NCBI GenBank assembly: GCA_011389865.1
Contig: JAABTL010000004.1
Span: forward strand, 1 to 51,853
Source: Trueperaceae bacterium
GTDB taxonomy: Bacteria; Deinococcota; Deinococci; Deinococcales; Trueperaceae
Reading direction: 5' to 3'
Length of the DNA stretch: 51,853 bases
A program made the position numbers and the translations under genes. The notes below the pieces were generated by a model. That model worked only from the letters and a program-made list of their open reading frames with translations, had not been told where the DNA came from and searched no databases. Below, piece by piece: positions 32,719 to 41,849 of the stretch. Numbering within the stretch: the stretch's first letter is position 1; every line of letters begins with the position of its first letter.

Positions 32719-33204
32719 ATGCGCATCGTGACCATGACCGTCGCCCTCCTCATCTTCTGGAGCGTCGTGGTGCCGCCCGAGGCCTGGGTCGACGTGGTCG
32801 TCGGGGCGATCGCGTCGCTCGCGCTCGCCGTCTGGGCCGCGCGGTTCCTGTGGCCCCACGCCGGCCCCCACCACTCCTCGCTCCACCTCTCCCGCGTGCC
32901 GGCCTTCGCGCTGCTGACCGCGAAGCGCATCATCGTGGCCGCGACGCAGGTGTTGCGGATCGTCATGGACCCACGCCTGCCGATCGAGCCCTTCGTGCTG
33001 CGGCAGACGGTGCACTTCGACGAGGAGGCCGCGCGCGTCGTGTACGCCAACGCCATCACCATCACGCCGGGCACGCTCACGCTGGACGTGGACGGCGACG
33101 TCGTCACCGTCCACGCGCTGGACCCCGAGCTGGCCCGCGACGTCGTCGACGGCACCCTGGCGCGGGACGTGTCTCGGCTCTTCGAGCGGCGGGTGGCGTC
33201 GTGA
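32719..33204 (+). CDS. mrpE: Na+/H+ antiporter subunit MrpE (MbhA-like)
   Basis: 161 residues with N-terminal spans (VTMTVALLIFWSVVVPPEAW, DVVVGAIASLALAVWAARFL) and a soluble C-terminal domain including the family stretch ANAITITPGTLTLDVDGDVV. First gene of a nine-gene operon in which nearly all stops overlap the next start. The order E-F-G-D-B-C-D matches the Mbh gene order (A-B-C-D-E/F-G-H) more than the classical mrpABCDEFG. ATG 32719 has only a distant GGAG. Confidence 0.88.
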   Translation: MRIVTMTVALLIFWSVVVPPEAWVDVVVGAIASLALAVWAARFLWPHAGPHHSSLHLSRVPAFALLTAKRIIVAATQVLRIVMDPRLPIEPFVLRQTVHFDEEAARVVYANAITITPGTLTLDVDGDVVTVHALDPELARDVVDGTLARDVSRLFERRVAS

Positions 33205-33515
33205 CGACGCTCCTGTGGGCTACCGCGATCGCGCTGCTGCTCATGGCGTTCGCCTGCCTGTGGCGGGCGGATGCGGGACCGACGATCCAGGACCGCCTCC
33301 TCGCGGTCAACGTGGCGGGCACCAAGACGCTGGTGGTGCTCGTGTTGCTGGCCACGATCGCCGGGCACGACTTCCTGATCGACGTGGCGATCGTGCTGGG
33401 GCTCCTCAACCTGATCATCACGCTGGCGGCCACCCGCTTCATCGAGAGCGGCCGCCTGAGCAGCGAATCGCCGACGGTTCGCGAACGGCCCTTCGGCGGG
33501 GAGGGCTCGTCGTGA
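33201..33515 (+). CDS. mrpF: Na+/H+ antiporter subunit MrpF (MbhB-like)
   Basis: 104-residue, three-span protein. Signature RADAGPTIQDRLLAVNVAGT followed by LIDVAIVLGLLNLIITLAAT; the Asp/Arg pair in the first loop is typical. The C-terminal ~20 residues are polar and variable. GTG 33201 overlaps the mrpE stop (GTGA). Confidence 0.9.
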   Translation: MTTLLWATAIALLLMAFACLWRADAGPTIQDRLLAVNVAGTKTLVVLVLLATIAGHDFLIDVAIVLGLLNLIITLAATRFIESGRLSSESPTVRERPFGGEGSS

Positions 33516-33832
33516 CGCTCGTGCTGAACGCTCTCAGCGCCGTCCTCATCGTGGTGGGCCTGGCCTTCGTGCTGGGCGGCACCGTCGGTCTCGTCCGCTT
33601 GCCCGACCTGTTCTCGCGCGCTCACGCGGCGAGCAAGTGCGACTCGGTGGGCGCCGGCTCGATCCTGTTCGCGCTGGCGCTGCAGGGCGGTCTCGCCTTC
33701 GGCGACCTCAAGATCGTGCTGATCGTCATGCTCGCGCTGGTGTCGGCGCCCACGACCGCGCACGCGCTGGCGCGCGCCGGCTACCGCACCGGGCTCGTGG
33801 CCTGGACCCGGCCGGAGAGGGGCGAGCCGTGA
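33512..33832 (+). CDS. mrpG: Na+/H+ antiporter subunit MrpG (MbhC-like)
   Basis: 106-residue, three-span protein with the family sequence VGLVRLPDLFSRAHAASKCD and LVSAPTTAHALARAGYR. GTG 33512 overlaps the mrpF stop (GTGA). Confidence 0.92.
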   Translation: MTLVLNALSAVLIVVGLAFVLGGTVGLVRLPDLFSRAHAASKCDSVGAGSILFALALQGGLAFGDLKIVLIVMLALVSAPTTAHALARAGYRTGLVAWTRPERGEP

Positions 33833-34074
33833 GCGATCTCTTCGACATCGTCATGCTCGCGCTGCTGATCGCCACCGCGGTCACCGTCGCGCGCGCGCGG
33901 GACCTGCTGGCGGCCGTCGTCATCTTCTCGATGTACAGCCTGACGATGACGCTGGTCTGGCAGCACCGCGGCGCGCCGGACGTCGCGATGACCGAGGCGG
34001 CGGTGGGCGCCGGCGTCACCACCGTGCTGTTCCTGATCACCATCGCGCGTACGACGAGGCGTGAGAAGCCATGA
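33829..34074 (+). CDS. MbhD-type (DUF4040) antiporter subunit, free-standing
   Basis: 81 residues, three spans: LFDIVMLALLIATAVTVARA, DLLAAVVIFSMYSLTMTLVW and MTEAAVGAGVTTVLFLITIA. In classical Mrp systems this module is the C-terminal part of MrpA; here it is a separate gene as in Mbh hydrogenases (MbhD). The conserved Glu in DVAMTEAAVGAG is present. Start GTG 33829 and stop overlap the neighbouring genes. Confidence 0.87.
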   Translation: MSDLFDIVMLALLIATAVTVARARDLLAAVVIFSMYSLTMTLVWQHRGAPDVAMTEAAVGAGVTTVLFLITIARTTRREKP

Positions 34075-34886
34075 GGCCGTGGTCGCTGCTGCTGGTGCTG
34101 CTGGTGGCGCTGCCGCTCGTCGCCGGCGTGGCGACGTTGCCGCCGCACGACGCGCCGGACGCCCCGATCCACACCCAGGTCGGCGCCCTCTACCTCGAGC
34201 GCGGGGTCGCCGAGACCGGCATGAAGAACCTGGTCACGGCGGTGCTGCTCAACTACCGCGGCTTCGATACCTTCATCGAGGTCGTCGTGATCTTCACCGC
34301 GCTGGCCGCGGTCCTGGCGCTGCCGAAAGGCAGCGCGCCGCTGCCGAAAGGCAACGCACCGCTACCGAAAGGCAGCGCACCGGTGCCAAAGGGCAACGCA
34401 CCGCTGCCGCAGCCCGACGCTGCCCGTTCGCAGGGCGTGGGCGGCGCGCGATCGCGCGAGGAGGAGGCCCCCGAGGTCGCCTCCGACGTGCCCGTCAGCC
34501 CCGTCGTCCGCTTCGTGGTGCGGCTCTTGGCGCCGTTCATCGCGATGTTCGCGGTCGCCATGCTGTTCCGGGGCCACATCACGCCGGGTGGCGGCTTCCA
34601 GGCCGCCGCGGTCTTCGCGGCCGTCTTCATCGCCCTGGGCCTCGTCCTCGGCCAAGACCGCGCGGCGCGGCTGGTGCCGGTCGACTGGCGCCCGTGGCTG
34701 CAGGGCGTGGCGCCGCTCGCCTTCGCGCTCGTCGCCTGGATCGGCTGGCGGCTGACGGGCGCGTTTCTCGGCTACCCCATCGACGACCACACGGTGCAGG
34801 AGGCGATGGGCTTCGTGCTCGAGATCGCCATCGCCGTCGGCGGGGGGGTCGTCCTGGCACGCATCTTCCTCGAGATGGAGACCTGA
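34071..34886 (+). CDS. mrpB: MbhE-MrpB fusion subunit with a repeat linker
   Basis: 271 residues. Residues 1-85 match the MbhE module (VAETGMKNLVTAVLLNYRGF, then EVVVIFTALAAVLAL), normally the very end of MrpA. Residues ~150-271 are MrpB (VVRFVVRLLAPFIAMFAVAM, LFRGHITPGGGFQAAAVFA, FLGYPIDDHTVQEAMGF). They are joined by a 21-bp repeat encoding alternating LPKGSAP/LPKGNAP and an acidic stretch. ATG 34071 overlaps the previous stop. Confidence 0.88.
   Translation: MRPWSLLLVLLVALPLVAGVATLPPHDAPDAPIHTQVGALYLERGVAETGMKNLVTAVLLNYRGFDTFIEVVVIFTALAAVLALPKGSAPLPKGNAPLPKGSAPVPKGNAPLPQPDAARSQGVGGARSREEEAPEVASDVPVSPVVRFVVRLLAPFIAMFAVAMLFRGHITPGGGFQAAAVFAAVFIALGLVLGQDRAARLVPVDWRPWLQGVAPLAFALVAWIGWRLTGAFLGYPIDDHTVQEAMGFVLEIAIAVGGGVVLARIFLEMET
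34320..34403 (+). repeat. Four 21-bp tandem repeats in the mrpB linker
   Basis: Units at 34320-34340, 34341-34361, 34362-34382 and 34383-34403 encode LPKGSAP variants. The first is bounded by an 8-bp perfect hairpin with a GAAA tetraloop (34317-34336). Confidence 0.85.
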
Positions 34887-35237
34887 ATGCAGCCGTTCGG
34901 GCTCGACCTCGACTACGTGGCGGTCGTCGCGCTCTTCTGCGTCGGCCTCTACATGCTGGTCGCCAAGAGCAACCTGCTCAAGAAGCTGTTGGGGCTCAAC
35001 GTCATGGAGACGTCGGTGTTCGCGTTCATCGTCACCGCCGGCATGGTCGAGGGCGGTGACCCGCCGATCATGGTCGCCGGAACCAGCGCCCCCTACGCCA
35101 GCCCAATCCCGCACGCGATGGTGCTGACCGGCATCGTCGTGGCCGTCAGCGTGACCGCCGTCGCGCTGGCGCTGATCGTGCAGATCCACGCCCACTTCGG
35201 CACGATCGAGATCGACGAACTCAAGGAACTGCCGTGA
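34887..35237 (+). CDS. mrpC: Na+/H+ antiporter subunit MrpC (MbhG/NuoK-like)
   Basis: 116 residues, three spans, homologous to NuoK: VALFCVGLYMLVAKSNLLKK, LLGLNVMETSVFAFIVTAGM and the family loop SAPYASPIPHAMVLTGIVVA. The membrane Glu in NVMETSV is conserved. ATG 34887 directly follows the mrpB stop. Confidence 0.92.
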   Translation: MQPFGLDLDYVAVVALFCVGLYMLVAKSNLLKKLLGLNVMETSVFAFIVTAGMVEGGDPPIMVAGTSAPYASPIPHAMVLTGIVVAVSVTAVALALIVQIHAHFGTIEIDELKELP

Positions 35238-36727
35238 CCGGCCCCTGGGCCGAGGCGCTGCCGTGGGCGATCGTCCTGCCCCTCGTCGGCGCCGCGCTCA
35301 CGCCGGCGGTCGCGGTCCGCCATCCCCGGGTGTCCGGGTTCTGGGCCTGGGGCGTGCTGTTGGTCACCGCGGTCCTCACCGCCGGTCTCGTGTCCGAACT
35401 CGTCGCTCGCGGCCCGTTCTCCTACGGGCTCGGCGGTTGGGCTGCCTCCTACGGCATCGAGTTGCGCTTCGACCACTTCAGCGCCTGGGTGCTGCCGCTG
35501 GTCGTGCTGTTCGTCGTCATCGTGCCGTTCTCGTGGCGTTACCTGGACCACGTGATGCCGGACGAGCGGCGACCGCCGTTCTACGCGCTGCTGCTGCTGA
35601 ACGCCGGGGGCATGATCGGCTTCTGCGTCACCGGCGACCTGTTCAACCTGTTCGTATTCACCGAGGTCGTGTCGCTGTCCAGCTACGCCCTGGTGGCGGT
35701 CGGCGGACGCGGCCTGGCCGCCTTCGCGGCCCTCAAGTACCTCTTCATCGGCGCCGTGTCGTCGCTCCTCATGCTCTTCGCGACGGCGCAGCTGTTCGTT
35801 CTGAGCGGCAGCCTCAACATGGCCGACGTCTCCCTGCGGCTCGGCGAGATCGGTGGCGGCACCGCGGTGATGGTGGCGTTCGCGGCCTACGCGGTCTCGT
35901 TCATGGTCAAGGCGGCGATGTTCCCGGTCCACGTCTGGCTGCCAGACGCCCACGCGATCGCCCCCAGTCCCGTCAGCGCGGTGTTGTCGGGCATGGTGGT
36001 CAAGGTCGGCATCGTCGGGATGCTGCGGATCTACCAGATCTACTTCGGCGCCGAGGTGCTCGAGCTCGGGGCGTTCAACCTGGCGCTGGTGTGGCTGGGC
36101 GCGATCTCGATCGTGATGGGCGCGTTCTTCGCCATCTTCCAGGACGACATCAAGCTCATGCTCGCCTACTCGACGATCTCGAACATCGGCTACATCGTGC
36201 TCGGCCTCGGGCTGGCGTCGCCCTACGCGGTGATCGGCGCCGCGGTGCACGTGTTCAACCACGCCCTGATCAAGGCGACCCTCTTCCTCGCCGCCGGCTC
36301 GATCATCCATCAGACCGGCTTCCGCACGCTCTCGGACCTGCGCGGCGTCGCCCGCACGATGCCGCAGACGTCGGCCGCGATGGCCATCGGCGCCGTGTCG
36401 ATCGTCGGGCTGCCGCCCACCGCGGGTTTCGTGTGCAAGTGGTACATCGCGCTCGGCGCGTTCGAGGCGAACCAGGCACCGTTCGGCTTCGCGCTCGTGT
36501 TCGGCGCGCTGTTCATCTTCATCTACTACATCCGGATGCTCAACGCCTTCTACTTCCAGCCACCGGTGCACGCTTCGGTCGCGCAGGCGAGCGAGACGCC
36601 CTGGTCGATGCGCGGGCCGGTCGTACTGCTCGCGTCCCTGTGCCTGATCCTCGGGGTGCTCGGCGGCATCCCGCTGACCTTCGTCGAGCCGGCGGTCCTC
36701 GACCTGCTGCCGTTCTGGGGGCAGTGA
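35234..36727 (+). CDS. mrpD: Antiporter-like subunit 1 (MrpD/MbhH type)
   Basis: 497 residues with about 14 spans, homologous to NuoM/NuoN. The proton-path residues are visible: Glu in FTEVVSLSSYALVAV, Lys in FMVKAAMFPVHVWLPDAHAI, Lys in LSGMVVKVGIVGMLRIYQ, and Lys in TAGFVCKWYIALGAF. GTG 35234 overlaps the mrpC stop. This is the best candidate for MrpD proper. Confidence 0.9.
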   Translation: MTGPWAEALPWAIVLPLVGAALTPAVAVRHPRVSGFWAWGVLLVTAVLTAGLVSELVARGPFSYGLGGWAASYGIELRFDHFSAWVLPLVVLFVVIVPFSWRYLDHVMPDERRPPFYALLLLNAGGMIGFCVTGDLFNLFVFTEVVSLSSYALVAVGGRGLAAFAALKYLFIGAVSSLLMLFATAQLFVLSGSLNMADVSLRLGEIGGGTAVMVAFAAYAVSFMVKAAMFPVHVWLPDAHAIAPSPVSAVLSGMVVKVGIVGMLRIYQIYFGAEVLELGAFNLALVWLGAISIVMGAFFAIFQDDIKLMLAYSTISNIGYIVLGLGLASPYAVIGAAVHVFNHALIKATLFLAAGSIIHQTGFRTLSDLRGVARTMPQTSAAMAIGAVSIVGLPPTAGFVCKWYIALGAFEANQAPFGFALVFGALFIFIYYIRMLNAFYFQPPVHASVAQASETPWSMRGPVVLLASLCLILGVLGGIPLTFVEPAVLDLLPFWGQ

Positions 36728-36728
36728 C

Positions 36729-38234
36729 GTGGAGGTCGTCGACGTCCGGCCGATCCTGGCGCCGTTCGTGTCGTTCCTCTGCGCCGGCCTCGTGTTCGGC
36801 TTCGGCCGCAGCATCTTCTGGCGCCGCTTCTTCACCTTCCTGGCGGCGTTCATCAAGATGGCGCTGGTGCTCTCCATGTTGCCCGGGACGCTGCAGGGCG
36901 TCGTGTACGTCTACCAGTTCGTCGAGTTCACCCCCGGCATCGGCATCGGCTTCCGGGCGGACGCCTACGGCATGTTCTTCTCGCTCGTCTCGTCGACGCT
37001 GTGGGTGTTCACCACGATCTACGCGATCGGCTACATGCAGGGCGACAGGGACCGCGTGCGCTTCTTCGGGTTCTTCGCCCTGTGCGTCTCCACCACGGTC
37101 GGGGTCGCGTTCGCCGAGAACCTGCTGACCTTCTTCCTGTTCTACGAGACGCTGACGATCTGCACCTACCCGCTGGTGGTGCACGCCGAGACGCCCGAGG
37201 CGCTGCGTGCGGGCCGCATCTACCTGACCTACACGCTGATCGGCGGCGGCTTCGCGCTGGTGGGCGCGGTGATGACGCTCAACGCCGCCGGCACGCTGAC
37301 CTTCGCCGCCCCCGGCATCCTCGGCATGGAGAGCGGCGTCGCGACGCTGGCGGTCATCTTCCTCTGCCTGATCATCGGCTTCGGGGTCAAGGCAGCGATC
37401 ATGCCGCTCCACGGCTGGCTGCCGATCGCGATGGTCGCGCCCACGCCGGTCAGCGCGCTGCTGCACGCCGTCGCGGTGGTGAAGGTCGGCGCCTTCGGGG
37501 TCACCCGCGTCATCTACAACGTGTTCGGCGTCGAGCTCTTGCGCGAGCTCGGTTTCGCCACACCGCTGGCCCTGCTCGCGGGCTTCACGATCGTGGCCGC
37601 CTCGACGATCGCCCTCACGCAGGACCACCTCAAGCGACGCCTCGCCTACTCGACGATCAGCCAGCTCTCGTACATCGTCCTCGGGGCCGCGCTGCTCACG
37701 CCGCTGGCGGCGACGGCGGCCGTCCTGCACATCGCCAACCAGGCGTTCGCCAAGATCACCATGTTCTTCGTGGTCGGGGCCATCACCCGCACCACGGGCA
37801 AGAAGTACGTCAGCGAGATCGACGGCATCGGCGCGCGCCTGCCCTGGAGCATGGCGGCCTTCTCGATCGCGGCGCTGTCGTTCGTGGGGGTGCCGCTGAC
37901 CGCCGGCTTCATCACGAAGTGGTACCTCGCGCTCGGCGCGCTGGAGGCCGACGCCTGGTGGTACGTGCTGGTGCTCATCACCAGCTCGCTGCTCAACGCC
38001 GGGTACTTCTTCCCGATCCTGCACCGGGCCTACTTCCGGCAGGCCAAGGAGCCCTGGCCGCCGCTGGAGCCGGGACGCCGGTTCGAGACCCCGAAGACGC
38101 TGCTGTTCCCGATCGTCATCTGCGCGGCGTACGTGCTGCTGCTGGGTGTCACCGCCGAGGTGCCCGGGATGCCGTTCTCGGTGGCTCAGGTGGCGGTCGA
38201 TGGCTTCTTCGCGCCGGTGGGCGGTGGGCCGTGA
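36729..38234 (+). CDS. Antiporter-like subunit 2 (NuoL/M/MrpD type)
   Basis: 501 residues, about 14 spans. Glu in FFLFYETLTICTYPLVVH, Lys in FGVKAAIMPLHGWLPIA, Lys in LHAVAVVKVGAFGVTRVI and Lys in TAGFITKWYLALGAL complete the proton-path set. The LHA-x-x-VVKVG form resembles the MrpA/NuoL signature. GTG 36729 is 1 nt after the previous stop. Confidence 0.88.
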   Translation: MEVVDVRPILAPFVSFLCAGLVFGFGRSIFWRRFFTFLAAFIKMALVLSMLPGTLQGVVYVYQFVEFTPGIGIGFRADAYGMFFSLVSSTLWVFTTIYAIGYMQGDRDRVRFFGFFALCVSTTVGVAFAENLLTFFLFYETLTICTYPLVVHAETPEALRAGRIYLTYTLIGGGFALVGAVMTLNAAGTLTFAAPGILGMESGVATLAVIFLCLIIGFGVKAAIMPLHGWLPIAMVAPTPVSALLHAVAVVKVGAFGVTRVIYNVFGVELLRELGFATPLALLAGFTIVAASTIALTQDHLKRRLAYSTISQLSYIVLGAALLTPLAATAAVLHIANQAFAKITMFFVVGAITRTTGKKYVSEIDGIGARLPWSMAAFSIAALSFVGVPLTAGFITKWYLALGALEADAWWYVLVLITSSLLNAGYFFPILHRAYFRQAKEPWPPLEPGRRFETPKTLLFPIVICAAYVLLLGVTAEVPGMPFSVAQVAVDGFFAPVGGGP

Positions 38235-39706
38235 GCTCCTGGTGGCCGGGCGTGGCCGTCGCGTTGCCCCTCGTCGGCGTCGCCGCGGTCTCCTTCGGCC
38301 GCCTGACCGAGCGCTGGCGCATCGCCGCGCTGGTGGTGCCCGCCGTCGCCGCCCTCGCGGTCGCCCTGCTGATCGTCGGCGACGTCCTCGCCGGCCGCAC
38401 GCCGGAGCTGTTCGTGCTCCGCATGACGCCGACGCTGTGGCTGGTGCTGCGGGTCGACGCGCCCGGCGCGCTCTACGGCGCGACGGTGGCGGCCCTGGGC
38501 CTGCTGGCCCTGGTGTACTCGTTCGGCTACGTCCAGCGCGGGCCGCGCTGGTCTCGCTACTTCGCCTTCCTCATGGCCTCGTTCACGTGCACCATGGGCG
38601 TCGCGTACGCGGGCAACCTGCTCACCTTCCTGATCTTCTACGAGGCGTTCTCGGTGCTGACCTACGCGCTCGTGGTCCACGAGCAGACGCCCGAGGCGAT
38701 CCGGGCGGGCGCGAAGTACATCGCCTACATCCTCGTCGGTGGGAGCCTGGTGCTCGCCGGCATCCTGCTGACCTACTTCCTGGCGGGCGACCTGACGTTC
38801 GTGGCCGGCGGCTTCCTCGCCGCGGACGCTGCGCGCGGGCAGCTCCTCGCCGCCTTCTGGTGCTTCGTCGTGGGCTTCGGCGTCAAGGCCGCCCTGGTGC
38901 CGCTGCACGGCTGGGTCCCGGATGCCCATCCGGCCGCGCCGGCGCCGTTCTCGGCGGTCCTCTCGGGCGTGATGGTCGCGGCCGGCGCCTTCGGCATCAT
39001 GCGGGTGGCCCTGGACGTGTACGGCGCCCCGCTGGTCCGCGCGCTGGGCGTCGCGCCCTGGCTGACCGTCATCGCATCCGTCACCGTGCTGCTGGGCGCG
39101 CTGCTGGCGATCGGTCAGGACGACCTGAAGCGGAGGCTGGCCTACTCGACGATCAGCCAGATGGGCTACCTGACGTTGGCGGTCTCGCTGCTCGGCTCCG
39201 GGGTGATGGCCGGGGCGCTGGTGCACCTCGTCCACCACGCGTTCCTCAAGGGCACGCTGTTCTTCTGTGCGGGGCTGTGGATCCACTCCAGCGGCGTCCG
39301 TCGGGTGCGCGATCTGCGCGGCATGGGGGCCCGCATGCCGCTGACGGCCGCTGCCTTCACGCTGGCTGCCCTCGGCATGATCGGCGTGCCACCGCTCTCG
39401 GGCTTCGTCAGCAAGTGGTGGCTGGGCGTGGGCATGCTCCAGGTGGACGCGGCGATCGGTCTCGCGGTGCTGCTGGCCGGCGCCCTCCTCGCCGCCGCCT
39501 ACCTTCTTCCCGTGGTGTACGCGGCCTACTTCGCGCCGGCCGGACCGATCGCCGGGCACGCCGGTCGCGAGGCGCCGGCGACGATGCTCGCCCCGACGCT
39601 GGTCGCCGCGGCCCTGACGATCGTCTTCGGGCTCGGCTCGCACTACGGCGGCTTCCCGCTGCAGCTCGCGCAGGCCGCGGTGGCCGCCTGGTTCGGTGGA
39701 GGTTGA
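38231..39706 (+). CDS. Antiporter-like subunit 3 (NuoM/MrpD type), one lysine missing
   Basis: 491 residues, about 14 spans. FLIFYEAFSVLTYALVVHEQ keeps the Glu and FGVKAALVPLHGWVPDAHPA the first Lys, but the next helix reads LSGVMVAAGAFGIMRVALD, with Ala where the others have Lys. LSGFVSKWWLGVGML keeps the third Lys. GTG 38231 overlaps the previous stop (GTGA). It is close in sequence to subunit 2 (both share the LVVH-x-x-TPEA loop), suggesting duplication. Confidence 0.88.
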   Translation: MSSWWPGVAVALPLVGVAAVSFGRLTERWRIAALVVPAVAALAVALLIVGDVLAGRTPELFVLRMTPTLWLVLRVDAPGALYGATVAALGLLALVYSFGYVQRGPRWSRYFAFLMASFTCTMGVAYAGNLLTFLIFYEAFSVLTYALVVHEQTPEAIRAGAKYIAYILVGGSLVLAGILLTYFLAGDLTFVAGGFLAADAARGQLLAAFWCFVVGFGVKAALVPLHGWVPDAHPAAPAPFSAVLSGVMVAAGAFGIMRVALDVYGAPLVRALGVAPWLTVIASVTVLLGALLAIGQDDLKRRLAYSTISQMGYLTLAVSLLGSGVMAGALVHLVHHAFLKGTLFFCAGLWIHSSGVRRVRDLRGMGARMPLTAAAFTLAALGMIGVPPLSGFVSKWWLGVGMLQVDAAIGLAVLLAGALLAAAYLLPVVYAAYFAPAGPIAGHAGREAPATMLAPTLVAAALTIVFGLGSHYGGFPLQLAQAAVAAWFGGG

Positions 39707-39710
39707 CACG

Positions 39711-41849
39711 ATGACCCACGCCGGTCCCGTGCTCGTGTTGCTGGTGCCGCTCGCTGCGGTCCCGCTGCTGTGGGTCGTCGACCGCATGGGCCGGAAGGCG
39801 ATGGGCGCGCTGGTCACCGTCGCCGCCGCGGCGTCGTTCGCGGGCGTGGCCTCGCTGCTGCCCGCGGTGTTGGCGCACGGGCGCCTCACCATCCGCGTCC
39901 CGGCGGTGCTCGGCGAGCTCGGTTTCGCGCTCGACGGCGTCGGCCTGACCTTCGCGCTCGTCACGACCTTCGTGTGGTCGTGCGCCTCGCTGTACGCCAT
40001 CGACTACCTCGACCACGACGGCAAGGAGCGCCGCTACCACCTGACCAGCCTGCTGACGCTGGCGGCCATGCTCGGCATCGTCGTGGCGGGCGACCTGATC
40101 ACGCTGTACGTCTTCTTCGAGTGGTTGGGCCTGGCCGCCTACCTGTTCGTCGTGCACGTCGGCGGCAAGGCCGCCGAGCGCGCCGGGCTGAAGTACCTCG
40201 TGCTGACGCTGCTCGGCGGCTTCGCCGTCCTGACCGGCGCCCTGATCGTCCAAGCCCTCGGCGGCGGCGAGTTGGGCGTGGCGCTGGCCCTCGAGCCCGG
40301 CAGCGAGACGATGCGGCTGCTCGCGGCGGCCCTCCTGGTGCTCGGCTTCGGCGTCAAGGCGGGCGTGCTCGGCCTGCACATCTGGCTGCCCGACGCCCAC
40401 ACGGCTGCGCCCGCACCGGCGAGCGCGCTGCTCTCGGGCCTGATGATCAAGGCCGGCGCCTACGGCATCCTGCGCACCGTGGGCGGCCTCTTCGCGGGCG
40501 GCCCCGACGCGTCGCCCGCCGTGGGGCTGCAGGCGGAGACCGTCGCCCTGGCCGTCCTGGGACTGGGCAGCGTGACGATGCTCGCGGGCGTCGTCATGGC
40601 GCTGTGGCAGGTCGAGGCCAAGCGCCTGCTCGCCTACAGCAGCGTCAGCCAGATGGGCTTCATCCTGGTGGGCATCGGCTCGGCCGCCTACCTGGGTGAG
40701 AGCGGCGGTATCGGCTGGACGGGCACCCTGATGCACGTCGTCAATCACGCCCTGTTCAAGGGGCTGCTGTTCCTGGGCCTGGGGGCCGTGATCCACGCGA
40801 CCGGCGTCGGCGACATGCGCCGGCTCGGCGGCCTGTGGCGGCGGATGCCGTGGACCTTCGCGCTGGTGCTGGTCGCCGTGGGTGGCATCATCGGCGTCCC
40901 CGGCCTCAACGGCTTCGTCAGCAAGAGCGTCCTGCACCACGCCCTCGAGTACGCGGAGGGATATCGCCACCTGGCGGCGTTGGCCTGGGCCGAGCGCGTG
41001 TTCACGCTGACGACGATCGGCACGACGGCCGCCCTGGTCAAGCTCGTGACGATGACCTTCTTCGGTTCGCCGCGCGCCGAACTCGGCGGCCACGTGCACG
41101 AGGCCTCCTGGCGCATGCGTGCCGCGATGGCGGCGATGGCCGCCGCCGTGGTGACGCTGGGCCTCAGGCCCCAGTTGCTGGCGCCGCTCCTCGCCAGCGC
41201 GCTCGGCGCCTTCGGCACGCCCGCGGGTGGCGTCGAGGGTTACCTGACGTCGCCGATCGGCCATGCCGGTGACCTGCGCGCCGCCGCCACGGCGCTCTCT
41301 CTCGGGATCGCGGTGGCCTGGGCCGCGGGGCGCTGGCACGTCTTCGACCGTCAGCCGCCGATGTGGCTCTCGCTCGACCGGTTGATCGCGGCCGCGATCG
41401 CGGCGGGTTCCGCCGCGGTGCGCTGGTCGGCCGCCGAGCGCGAGGCGCTCGAGGCCAGCGCGCGGCGCCTGCTGGAGCACGAGCGCGAGGTGCTGATGGC
41501 CGCGACCACGCGGCCGCCCGTCGCGACCCGCCGGCTGTGGGTGCGGCTGCGGGTGCGCACGTTGGCGCTCGCGGAGCGCTTGTCGGTGCACTGGCGGGTG
41601 GCGGAGCGCGTCACCCGCGAGATCGGGCGGCGGCTCGACGAGAGCCGGCGGCTCGACGAGAGCCAGCAACTGCAGGTACGGGTCGCGCGCGACCTCGGTG
41701 ACGTGGCGAAGTCCGCGGGGGGCGAGGAGCTCGCCCTGATGGCGCGCCGCCGCATCCAACGCGACAGCCGCGACCTCAGCCTCAACGTCGGCGTGCTCTT
41801 CGTCGTCTGGCTGCTGTTCCTGGGGGCGCTGTGGGTCGCGGCGGGTTGA
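39711..41849 (+). CDS. Antiporter-like subunit 4 (NuoL/MrpA-N type) with extra C-terminal domain
   Basis: 712 residues. The core (1-480) is NuoL/MrpA-like: VFFEWLGLAAYLFVVHVGGK, FGVKAGVLGLHIWLPDAHTA, LSGLMIKAGAYGILRTVGG and LNGFVSKSVLHHALEY. After two more spans comes ~190 residues rich in Arg/Ala/Glu, predicted helical and probably cytoplasmic (ERLSVHWRVAERVTREIGRR), then a final span (LNVGVLFVVWLLFLGALWVA). It may replace the lateral helix/anchor of MrpA or NuoL. ATG 39711 has GGAGGT upstream; the gene ends the operon. Confidence 0.87.
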   Translation: MTHAGPVLVLLVPLAAVPLLWVVDRMGRKAMGALVTVAAAASFAGVASLLPAVLAHGRLTIRVPAVLGELGFALDGVGLTFALVTTFVWSCASLYAIDYLDHDGKERRYHLTSLLTLAAMLGIVVAGDLITLYVFFEWLGLAAYLFVVHVGGKAAERAGLKYLVLTLLGGFAVLTGALIVQALGGGELGVALALEPGSETMRLLAAALLVLGFGVKAGVLGLHIWLPDAHTAAPAPASALLSGLMIKAGAYGILRTVGGLFAGGPDASPAVGLQAETVALAVLGLGSVTMLAGVVMALWQVEAKRLLAYSSVSQMGFILVGIGSAAYLGESGGIGWTGTLMHVVNHALFKGLLFLGLGAVIHATGVGDMRRLGGLWRRMPWTFALVLVAVGGIIGVPGLNGFVSKSVLHHALEYAEGYRHLAALAWAERVFTLTTIGTTAALVKLVTMTFFGSPRAELGGHVHEASWRMRAAMAAMAAAVVTLGLRPQLLAPLLASALGAFGTPAGGVEGYLTSPIGHAGDLRAAATALSLGIAVAWAAGRWHVFDRQPPMWLSLDRLIAAAIAAGSAAVRWSAAEREALEASARRLLEHEREVLMAATTRPPVATRRLWVRLRVRTLALAERLSVHWRVAERVTREIGRRLDESRRLDESQQLQVRVARDLGDVAKSAGGEELALMARRRIQRDSRDLSLNVGVLFVVWLLFLGALWVAAG

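Follow-up and report, generated by a model that had tools for sequence, protein, structure and literature searches.

Gene content and layout of the operon

The analyzed window, a stretch of 51,853 nucleotides from a Trueperaceae bacterium (Deinococcota; assembly GCA_011389865.1, contig JAABTL010000004.1), contains an antiporter operon of ten contiguous genes on the same strand (32719-41849, +), six of them encoding small subunits and four encoding large ones. After mrpE-F-G-DUF4040/MbhD-(MbhE+MrpB)-C come the genes for four antiporter-like subunits with a PF00361 domain, here termed X1 to X4. Together, the ten genes probably specify a single stand-alone Mrp cation/proton antiporter of the Group 3 type, in which the four antiporter-like subunits would be lined up. 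A preliminary description, made from the sequence alone, had counted nine genes, although its own list sums to ten (six small plus four large); the subunit order it gave was confirmed, since every protein scored above its own Pfam cut-off (MNHE, MrpF_PhaF, PhaG_MnhG, MbhD, MbhE plus MnhB, Oxidored_q2 and four times Proton_antipo_M).

The small-subunit part starts with mrpE (32719..33204, 161 amino acids [aa]; PF01899 MNHE, 7.3e-23), mrpF (33201..33515, 104 aa; PF04066, 1.5e-12), which overlaps mrpE by four bases, and mrpG (33512..33832, 106 aa; PF03334, 1e-22; TIGR01300 above cut-off). These are followed by a DUF4040/MbhD-like subunit (33829..34074, 81 aa; PF13244 MbhD, 3e-21), which corresponds to a separate piece of the MrpA C-terminus, by an MbhE+MrpB fusion (34071..34886, 271 aa; PF20501 MbhE, 2.2e-8, residues 17-84; PF04039 MnhB, 9.5e-20, residues 145-261) and by the NuoK-like mrpC (34887..35237, 116 aa; PF00420, 1.4e-24; NF005621 above cut-off). 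A 21-base tandem repeat of 4.4 copies (34318-34409) encodes an LPKGNAP-type linker joining the MbhE and MrpB halves of the fusion.

The large subunits comprise X1, of the MrpD/MbhH type (35234..36727, 497 aa; PF00361, 2.6e-63), X2, of the PRK08375 family (36729..38234, 501 aa; PF00361, 1.5e-52; NF006236, 504.7 bits), its paralogue X3 (38231..39706, 491 aa; PF00361, 2.8e-60) and the terminal X4, with a NuoL/MrpA fold (39711..41849, 712 aa; PF00361, 1.3e-52). The four NuoL/M/N-like subunits of 490-712 residues of the preliminary description were thus recovered as four Proton_antipo_M proteins, and its dissected MrpA was borne out: X4 lacks an MbhD or MbhE domain, DUF4040 is a free protein, MbhE is fused to MrpB, and X1 to X4 are separate genes. 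The best NCBIfam matches were models of Mrp subunits E, F, G, B, C and D, while the model nearest to X4 was hydrogenase-4 subunit B, and X1-X4 all scored under the NCBIfam cut-offs.

Six of the nine junctions are 4-base overlaps, in agreement with the earlier statement that most are, and the largest gap measures four bases. The mrpC gene abuts the MbhE+MrpB gene (TGA|ATG at 34886/34887), X1 and X2 are separated by one base (36728), and X3 and X4 by four (39707-39710), the ATG of X4 (39711) standing after GGAGG. A consensus scan for promoters and terminators was uninformative at 72% G+C.

Phylogeny, key residues and the C-terminal arm of X4

The phylogeny of the four subunits, proposed as a check in the preliminary description, was based on quick tree searches supported by the Shimodaira-Hasegawa-like approximate likelihood ratio test (SH-aLRT) only, with several weak deep branches. 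X1 fell in a clade with MbhH, MrpD, MbsH and NuoN (99% SH-aLRT); its best solved structure was MbhH (6cfw_H, 3.9e-72), and the likeness to Mbh suggested earlier holds to that extent. X2 and X3 belong to one family, which also includes the second D subunit of the three-subunit operons from haloarchaea and the MrpD-like subunit found in rhizobial complex I. Within this family X2 clades with these two, and X3 forms its own paralogue clade, with members from Deinococcota, Actinomycetota, Pseudomonadota and Gemmatimonadota. X4 likewise forms its own clade, outside that of NuoL plus MrpA. As X2, X3 and X4 each form a separate clade that includes neither NuoL, NuoM nor MrpA, and none of the three falls within the NuoL/M/N clades, the extra subunits look like elaborations of the Mrp lineage, and the intermediate between Mrp and complex I that had been proposed is not supported.

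Judged from these trees, X2 and X3 are old paralogues occurring side by side in several phyla; a local duplication within one genome was ruled out because each clade spans phyla. The Deinococcota X3 sequences group with those from Gammaproteobacteria and Gemmatimonadota, inside actinobacterial diversity, a placement expected for transfer of the cassette between phyla, which may have taken place.

At the residue level, the central-axis Glu of transmembrane helix (TM) 5 and Lys of TM7 and TM12 are kept in essentially all aligned rows of X1-X4. The TM8 Lys position is mostly or always occupied by Lys in X1, X2 and X4, and by Ala in 43 of 43 rows of the main X3 clade (some of these rows being the same genome fetched twice), which also carries Ser at the TM8 His position of NuoL, MrpA and X2. 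Rows labelled X3 from three-subunit operons retain the TM8 Lys, with the exception of a Gemmatimonadetes locus that has lost X2 (L081). One alternative is that the extra subunits add little, having persisted by drift as redundant duplicates in an operon that works exactly like a two-subunit Mrp. The altered TM8 positions of X3 would fit it, as would the canonical Mrp encoded elsewhere in the same genome (contig C65); the retained TM5, TM7 and TM12 residues and the persistence of two old paralogues next to each other in several phyla speak against it and leave it very improbable. On the alignment, the X3 substitution is a conserved specialisation, which by itself does not prove a dead channel: the TM8 Lys is also absent from ND5, and a NuoM Lys-to-Ala variant still pumped (PMC9802314). 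Of the "up to four ion channels" first envisaged, the four antiporter-like subunits therefore stand, while the fourth channel is made less certain by the loss of the TM8 Lys throughout the X3 clade. In many bacterial Mrp operons with three large subunits, the NuoL-like one (the "complex I subunit 5 family" protein) lacks the TM5 Glu of the central ion pair; Ala, Ser, Thr or Val was found there in 7/7 cases (L022, L025, L032, L034, L038, L080).

An AlphaFold2 model of X4 built from 68 homologues reached a mean predicted local distance difference test (pLDDT) value of 86.3, replacing one from six sequences only (pLDDT 56), and its best Foldseek matches were mycobacterial NuoL and Bacillus MrpA. 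After TM15 the model shows a lower-confidence helical stretch of about 120 residues and then a final TM helix; this arm, at about residues 550-690, resembles the lateral (transverse) helix plus TM16 of NuoL. In the window it contains a perfect 18-base duplication (41628-41664), by which RRLDES is encoded twice.

Taken as the part from P550 to the C-terminus, the arm is 162-381 aa long in four-subunit operons (n = 31), with 162 aa in the window. Of 18 three-subunit operons, 16 have arms of 94-111 aa and the other two of 136 and 238 aa, and the corresponding part of NuoL in canonical complex I has 91-96 aa. Four- and three-subunit operons thus differ in arm length (Mann-Whitney P about 1e-8, uncorrected for relatedness). 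In L081 (1-5482), which has X1-X3-X4 without X2 and whose X3 falls inside the four-subunit clade, the arm is of three-subunit length (110 aa). In complex I, a 26-aa insertion in the lateral helix accompanies extra pumping subunits (PMC9040806). Because arm length follows subunit number, X4 would be placed at the end of a row with X1-X3, and this is the main evidence for that arrangement.

The same evidence bears on whether the operon encodes more than one complex, for instance a minimal Mrp (E-F-G-B-C-X1) and a separate X2-X3-X4 assembly, or X2-X4 swapped under different conditions. Such a division has precedents in the one-subunit stand-alone Mrp of a relative (L039) and of Pyrococcus furiosus (PMC8415708), and in blocks of the X2-X4 type within other complexes (L102, L116). 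It is nonetheless unlikely, given the tight translational coupling of all ten genes, an order conserved over phyla, and an arm whose length follows the subunits lying between X4 and MrpC, including the reversal in L081, as expected with all subunits in one row.

Distribution, genomic setting and search for a redox module

A scan with an X4 profile over one genome per species retrieved 79 loci. Genes for mrpC and all four large subunits were found together in 31 non-redundant loci from several phyla, most of them in the order E-F-G-DUF4040-(MbhE+MrpB)-C-X1-X2-X3-X4. Carriers included Trueperaceae, Coriobacteriia/Anaerosomatales and other Actinomycetota, and Gammaproteobacteria such as Thioalkalivibrio sp. 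XN8, whereas in two archaeal loci (L078, L079) MbhE and MrpB are unfused and X2-family paralogues stand in another order. The survey of Deinococcota that had been called for detected X3 in 9 of 111 sampled genomes of the phylum, in two genera of one family. X3 was also present in 32 of 298 sampled genomes from the class of locus L056, and among 369 genomes sampled from the class of Thioalkalivibrio it occurred in Thioalkalivibrio only. Plasmid copies of X3 were not found, the matches being of the X2 type. Many source names contain CSSed or T3Sed, which we take to denote metagenome-assembled genomes (MAGs) from soda-lake sediment; the source names suggest a haloalkaline association of the four-subunit operon.

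Of the nine PF00361 proteins encoded by the host genome (G000; 3.05 Mb, 97% complete), three belong to a complex I operon (contig C13) and two to a canonical Mrp whose MrpA is fused (C65, locus L028); the remaining four are those described here. The operon is followed on its 3' side by rplU, rpmA and obgE, and it lies upstream of these genes in every Trueperaceae locus with an available flank (G001, G004, G015, G097, G101), by which a recent mobile insertion in this family was ruled out. The 31 non-redundant loci across phyla and this constant neighbourhood indicate that the four-subunit order is not due to chance. Among named relatives, the closest is L047, a Trueperaceae MAG whose X4 is 93% identical. 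Clustering of flanking open reading frames (ORFs) for a possible extra subunit yielded nothing shared with the window, and many of the clusters consisted of shadow ORFs, as occur in GC-rich DNA. It did reveal a gene for a GGDEF-like membrane protein directly upstream of mrpE, on the same strand, in about 20 loci, mostly from Coriobacteriia (L054-L098).

Several further arrangements were observed. Thioalkalivibrio sp. XN8 carries a four-subunit Mrp operon directly followed by a complete three-subunit one (L080:4146-22925). Genome G017 has a stand-alone one-subunit Mrp-like operon (L039:6473-10452; F-G-DUF4040-MbhE/MrpB-C-D-E) as well as two-subunit (L046) and three-subunit (L038) Mrp operons. 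A Truepera sp. MAG (G013, L032:5809-14760) combines a three-subunit Mrp operon with a free, short-armed X4 gene after mrpE, another route to four antiporter-like subunits. A stand-alone Mrp-like operon from a Methanocellales MAG (L086:1086-11959) encodes five such subunits (X1, three X2-family paralogues and X4, the last cut by the contig end).

No NuoB, NuoC or NuoD homologue was found within 10 kb of X4 at any X4 locus, using NuoA-F proteins and NuoB/C/D/F hidden Markov models, a search that did not extend to MbhM/NuoH-type anchor subunits or NuoI; the only redox-type match was a NuoF-like protein at L123. This agrees with the absence of a hydrogenase or NADH module noted in the preliminary description, and it bears on the alternative that the ten genes supply the membrane arm of a pump driven by redox chemistry, with the genes for a hydrogenase-like or NADH-type module located at another site in the genome. 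That alternative draws on the first seven genes, which are common to Mbh (PMC8415708), on X2-type subunits in rhizobial complex I (L023) and X2/X4-type subunits in an actinobacterial complex I-like operon (L102), and on NiFe hydrogenases on other contigs of the host genome. It is set against the missing NuoB/C/D partners, the fact that the single PF00346 gene of the host genome lies in the C13 complex I operon with its own NuoL/M/N, and the complete archaeal chromosome of L078 (0.99 Mb), which has no PF00346 and whose only four PF00361 proteins are those of its cluster; we regard it as improbable. The L078 genome has a PF00374 hydrogenase gene about 400 kb from the cluster, and in the L079 Methanocellales MAG neither PF00346 nor PF00374 was found. 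As PF00346 was found in neither genome, the membrane module exists without a complex I-type partner in at least those lineages.

The hydrogenase genes of the host genome (C7:50926-52449, C33:8041-15801) encode the large subunit of a NiFe hydrogenase and two hydrogenase-like large subunits of more distant kinship, with no link to the operon seen. The complex I-like operon of an uncultured actinobacterium (L102:136-10830) encodes a NuoI-like protein fused to a larger protein, NuoJ, NuoK, NuoM and NuoN; these are followed by two subunits of the X2 family and one of the X4 type, which brings the number of antiporter-like subunits to five. L116 (1-7172) encodes NuoN, two X2-family subunits and X4.

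Relation to known systems and proposed function

Among the Mrp antiporters (CPA3), Group 3 is defined by the absence of mrpA and the presence of one or more mrpD (PMC8415708). The operon corresponds to this group, as E, F, G, B, C and at least one D are encoded together with no full MrpA. It differs from Group 1/2 Mrp in lacking an MrpA with C-terminal DUF4040/MbhE plus a single MrpD, from Mbh, group 4 hydrogenases and MBS in having no redox module (MbhJ/L, NuoB/D-like) in the operon, and from complex I in that X2-X4 lie outside the NuoL/M/N clades and no NuoB/C/D is nearby (NuoH and NuoI were not searched).

The closest described frame is the stand-alone mrpEFGBB'CD operon of P. furiosus, deletion of which affects Na+-dependent pH homeostasis (PMC8415708). 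It shares the order E-F-G-B(MbhD/E)-B'(MrpB)-C-D and the lack of mrpA and of a redox module (PMC8415708), so that the first seven genes of what was initially interpreted as an Mrp/Mbh hybrid had already been described as a stand-alone Group 3 Mrp; it has one antiporter-like subunit against four in the window, where MbhE is fused to MrpB and not to MbhD. Three large subunits are found in Microbacterium TS-1 (mrpFGBCDDAE; PMC5703873), in the Group 3 Mrp of Ca. Nitrospira alkalitolerans, with mrpD and then NuoM- and NuoL-like genes (PMC7784846), and in haloarchaeal and rhizobial plasmid loci (L024, L025, L026), where the small subunits precede MrpD, an X2-type and a NuoL-like last subunit. Unlike the operon described here, the three-subunit forms have no X3, and the last subunit of the compared loci falls in the S5bac and D3halo clades and not in that of X4.

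Mbh and MBS of P. furiosus resemble the operon in the first seven subunit types, and MBS also in the fusion of MbhE with MbhF/MrpB (Table 2, PMC8415708), but both carry a redox module. Extra antiporter-like subunits also occur in rhizobial green complex I, Nitrospira 2M complex I and Manganitrophaceae Complex_I_3, some with a longer lateral helix in the terminal subunit (PMC9040806); the extra subunit of the rhizobial form belongs to the X2 family. These, however, are full enzymes with NADH/quinone modules. Canonical Group 1/2 Mrp (Bacillus pseudofirmus 7qru, Anoxybacillus flavithermus 6z16, Dietzia 7d3u) has homologous subunits, the N-terminal antiporter part of MrpA being similar in fold to X4, but only two antiporter-like subunits, with MbhD/MbhE fused to the MrpA C-terminus. 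Hence, the concern that the order might already represent a standard group applies in part: the Group 3 frame and the three-subunit forms are known, whereas no description of a stand-alone Mrp with four antiporter-like subunits was found in the open-access literature, subscription papers being outside the search, and the four-subunit form is a new variant.

We infer the single complex from operon structure and X4 arm length, and the ion, direction and stoichiometry from what is known of the family; the physiological role is likewise a proposal. By analogy with Mrp, Mbh and complex I, the cation module (MrpE, F, G, B, MbhD, MbhE, MrpC) would lie at one end, followed by the MrpD/MbhH-like X1, by X2 and X3 and, at the far end, by the NuoL/MrpA-like X4, whose arm would run back along X3 and X2 with its last TM helix anchored near X1/MrpC. 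The complex would most likely be a Na+(K+)/H+ antiporter driven by the proton-motive force, importing several H+ per exported Na+ (or K+) and thereby limiting both the alkalinity and the Na+ content of the cytoplasm in haloalkaline surroundings. With the additional antiporter-like subunits acting as proton channels in series, the H+/cation ratio would probably be higher.

Several observations weigh against a single four-subunit antiporter of this kind. No biochemical work on a four-subunit operon was found; in the archaeal form with four subunits, the order of the X2-family paralogues differs; and X3, without the TM8 Lys, does not assure a fourth working channel. The arm comparison includes an outlier with three subunits yet a 238-aa arm (L119), takes no account of relatedness in its P value, and involves Coriobacteriia arms that are mostly far longer than one extra subunit requires. 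Moreover, subunits of the X2 and X4 types are also present within complex I-like operons, and the module is thus able to couple to redox enzymes.

A bolder version, possible though doubtful, is that the operon represents an undescribed class of purely secondary four-subunit antiporters, old and spread between phyla, in which X3 would be a specialised relay without the TM8 Lys, the X4 arm would have been lengthened to span X3, and the H+/cation ratio would be raised. If true, more H+ per cation would let exchange work at very low proton-motive force. How antiporter-like subunits are coupled is still debated for complex I and the whole group of enzymes related to it. Stand-alone operons without a redox module provide a natural series of one (L039), two (L028), three (L034, L038) and four (the window) such subunits within the window's family, and of five in an archaeon (L086), suited to asking whether each added subunit alters ion stoichiometry, and X3 offers a natural variant at the TM8 Lys.

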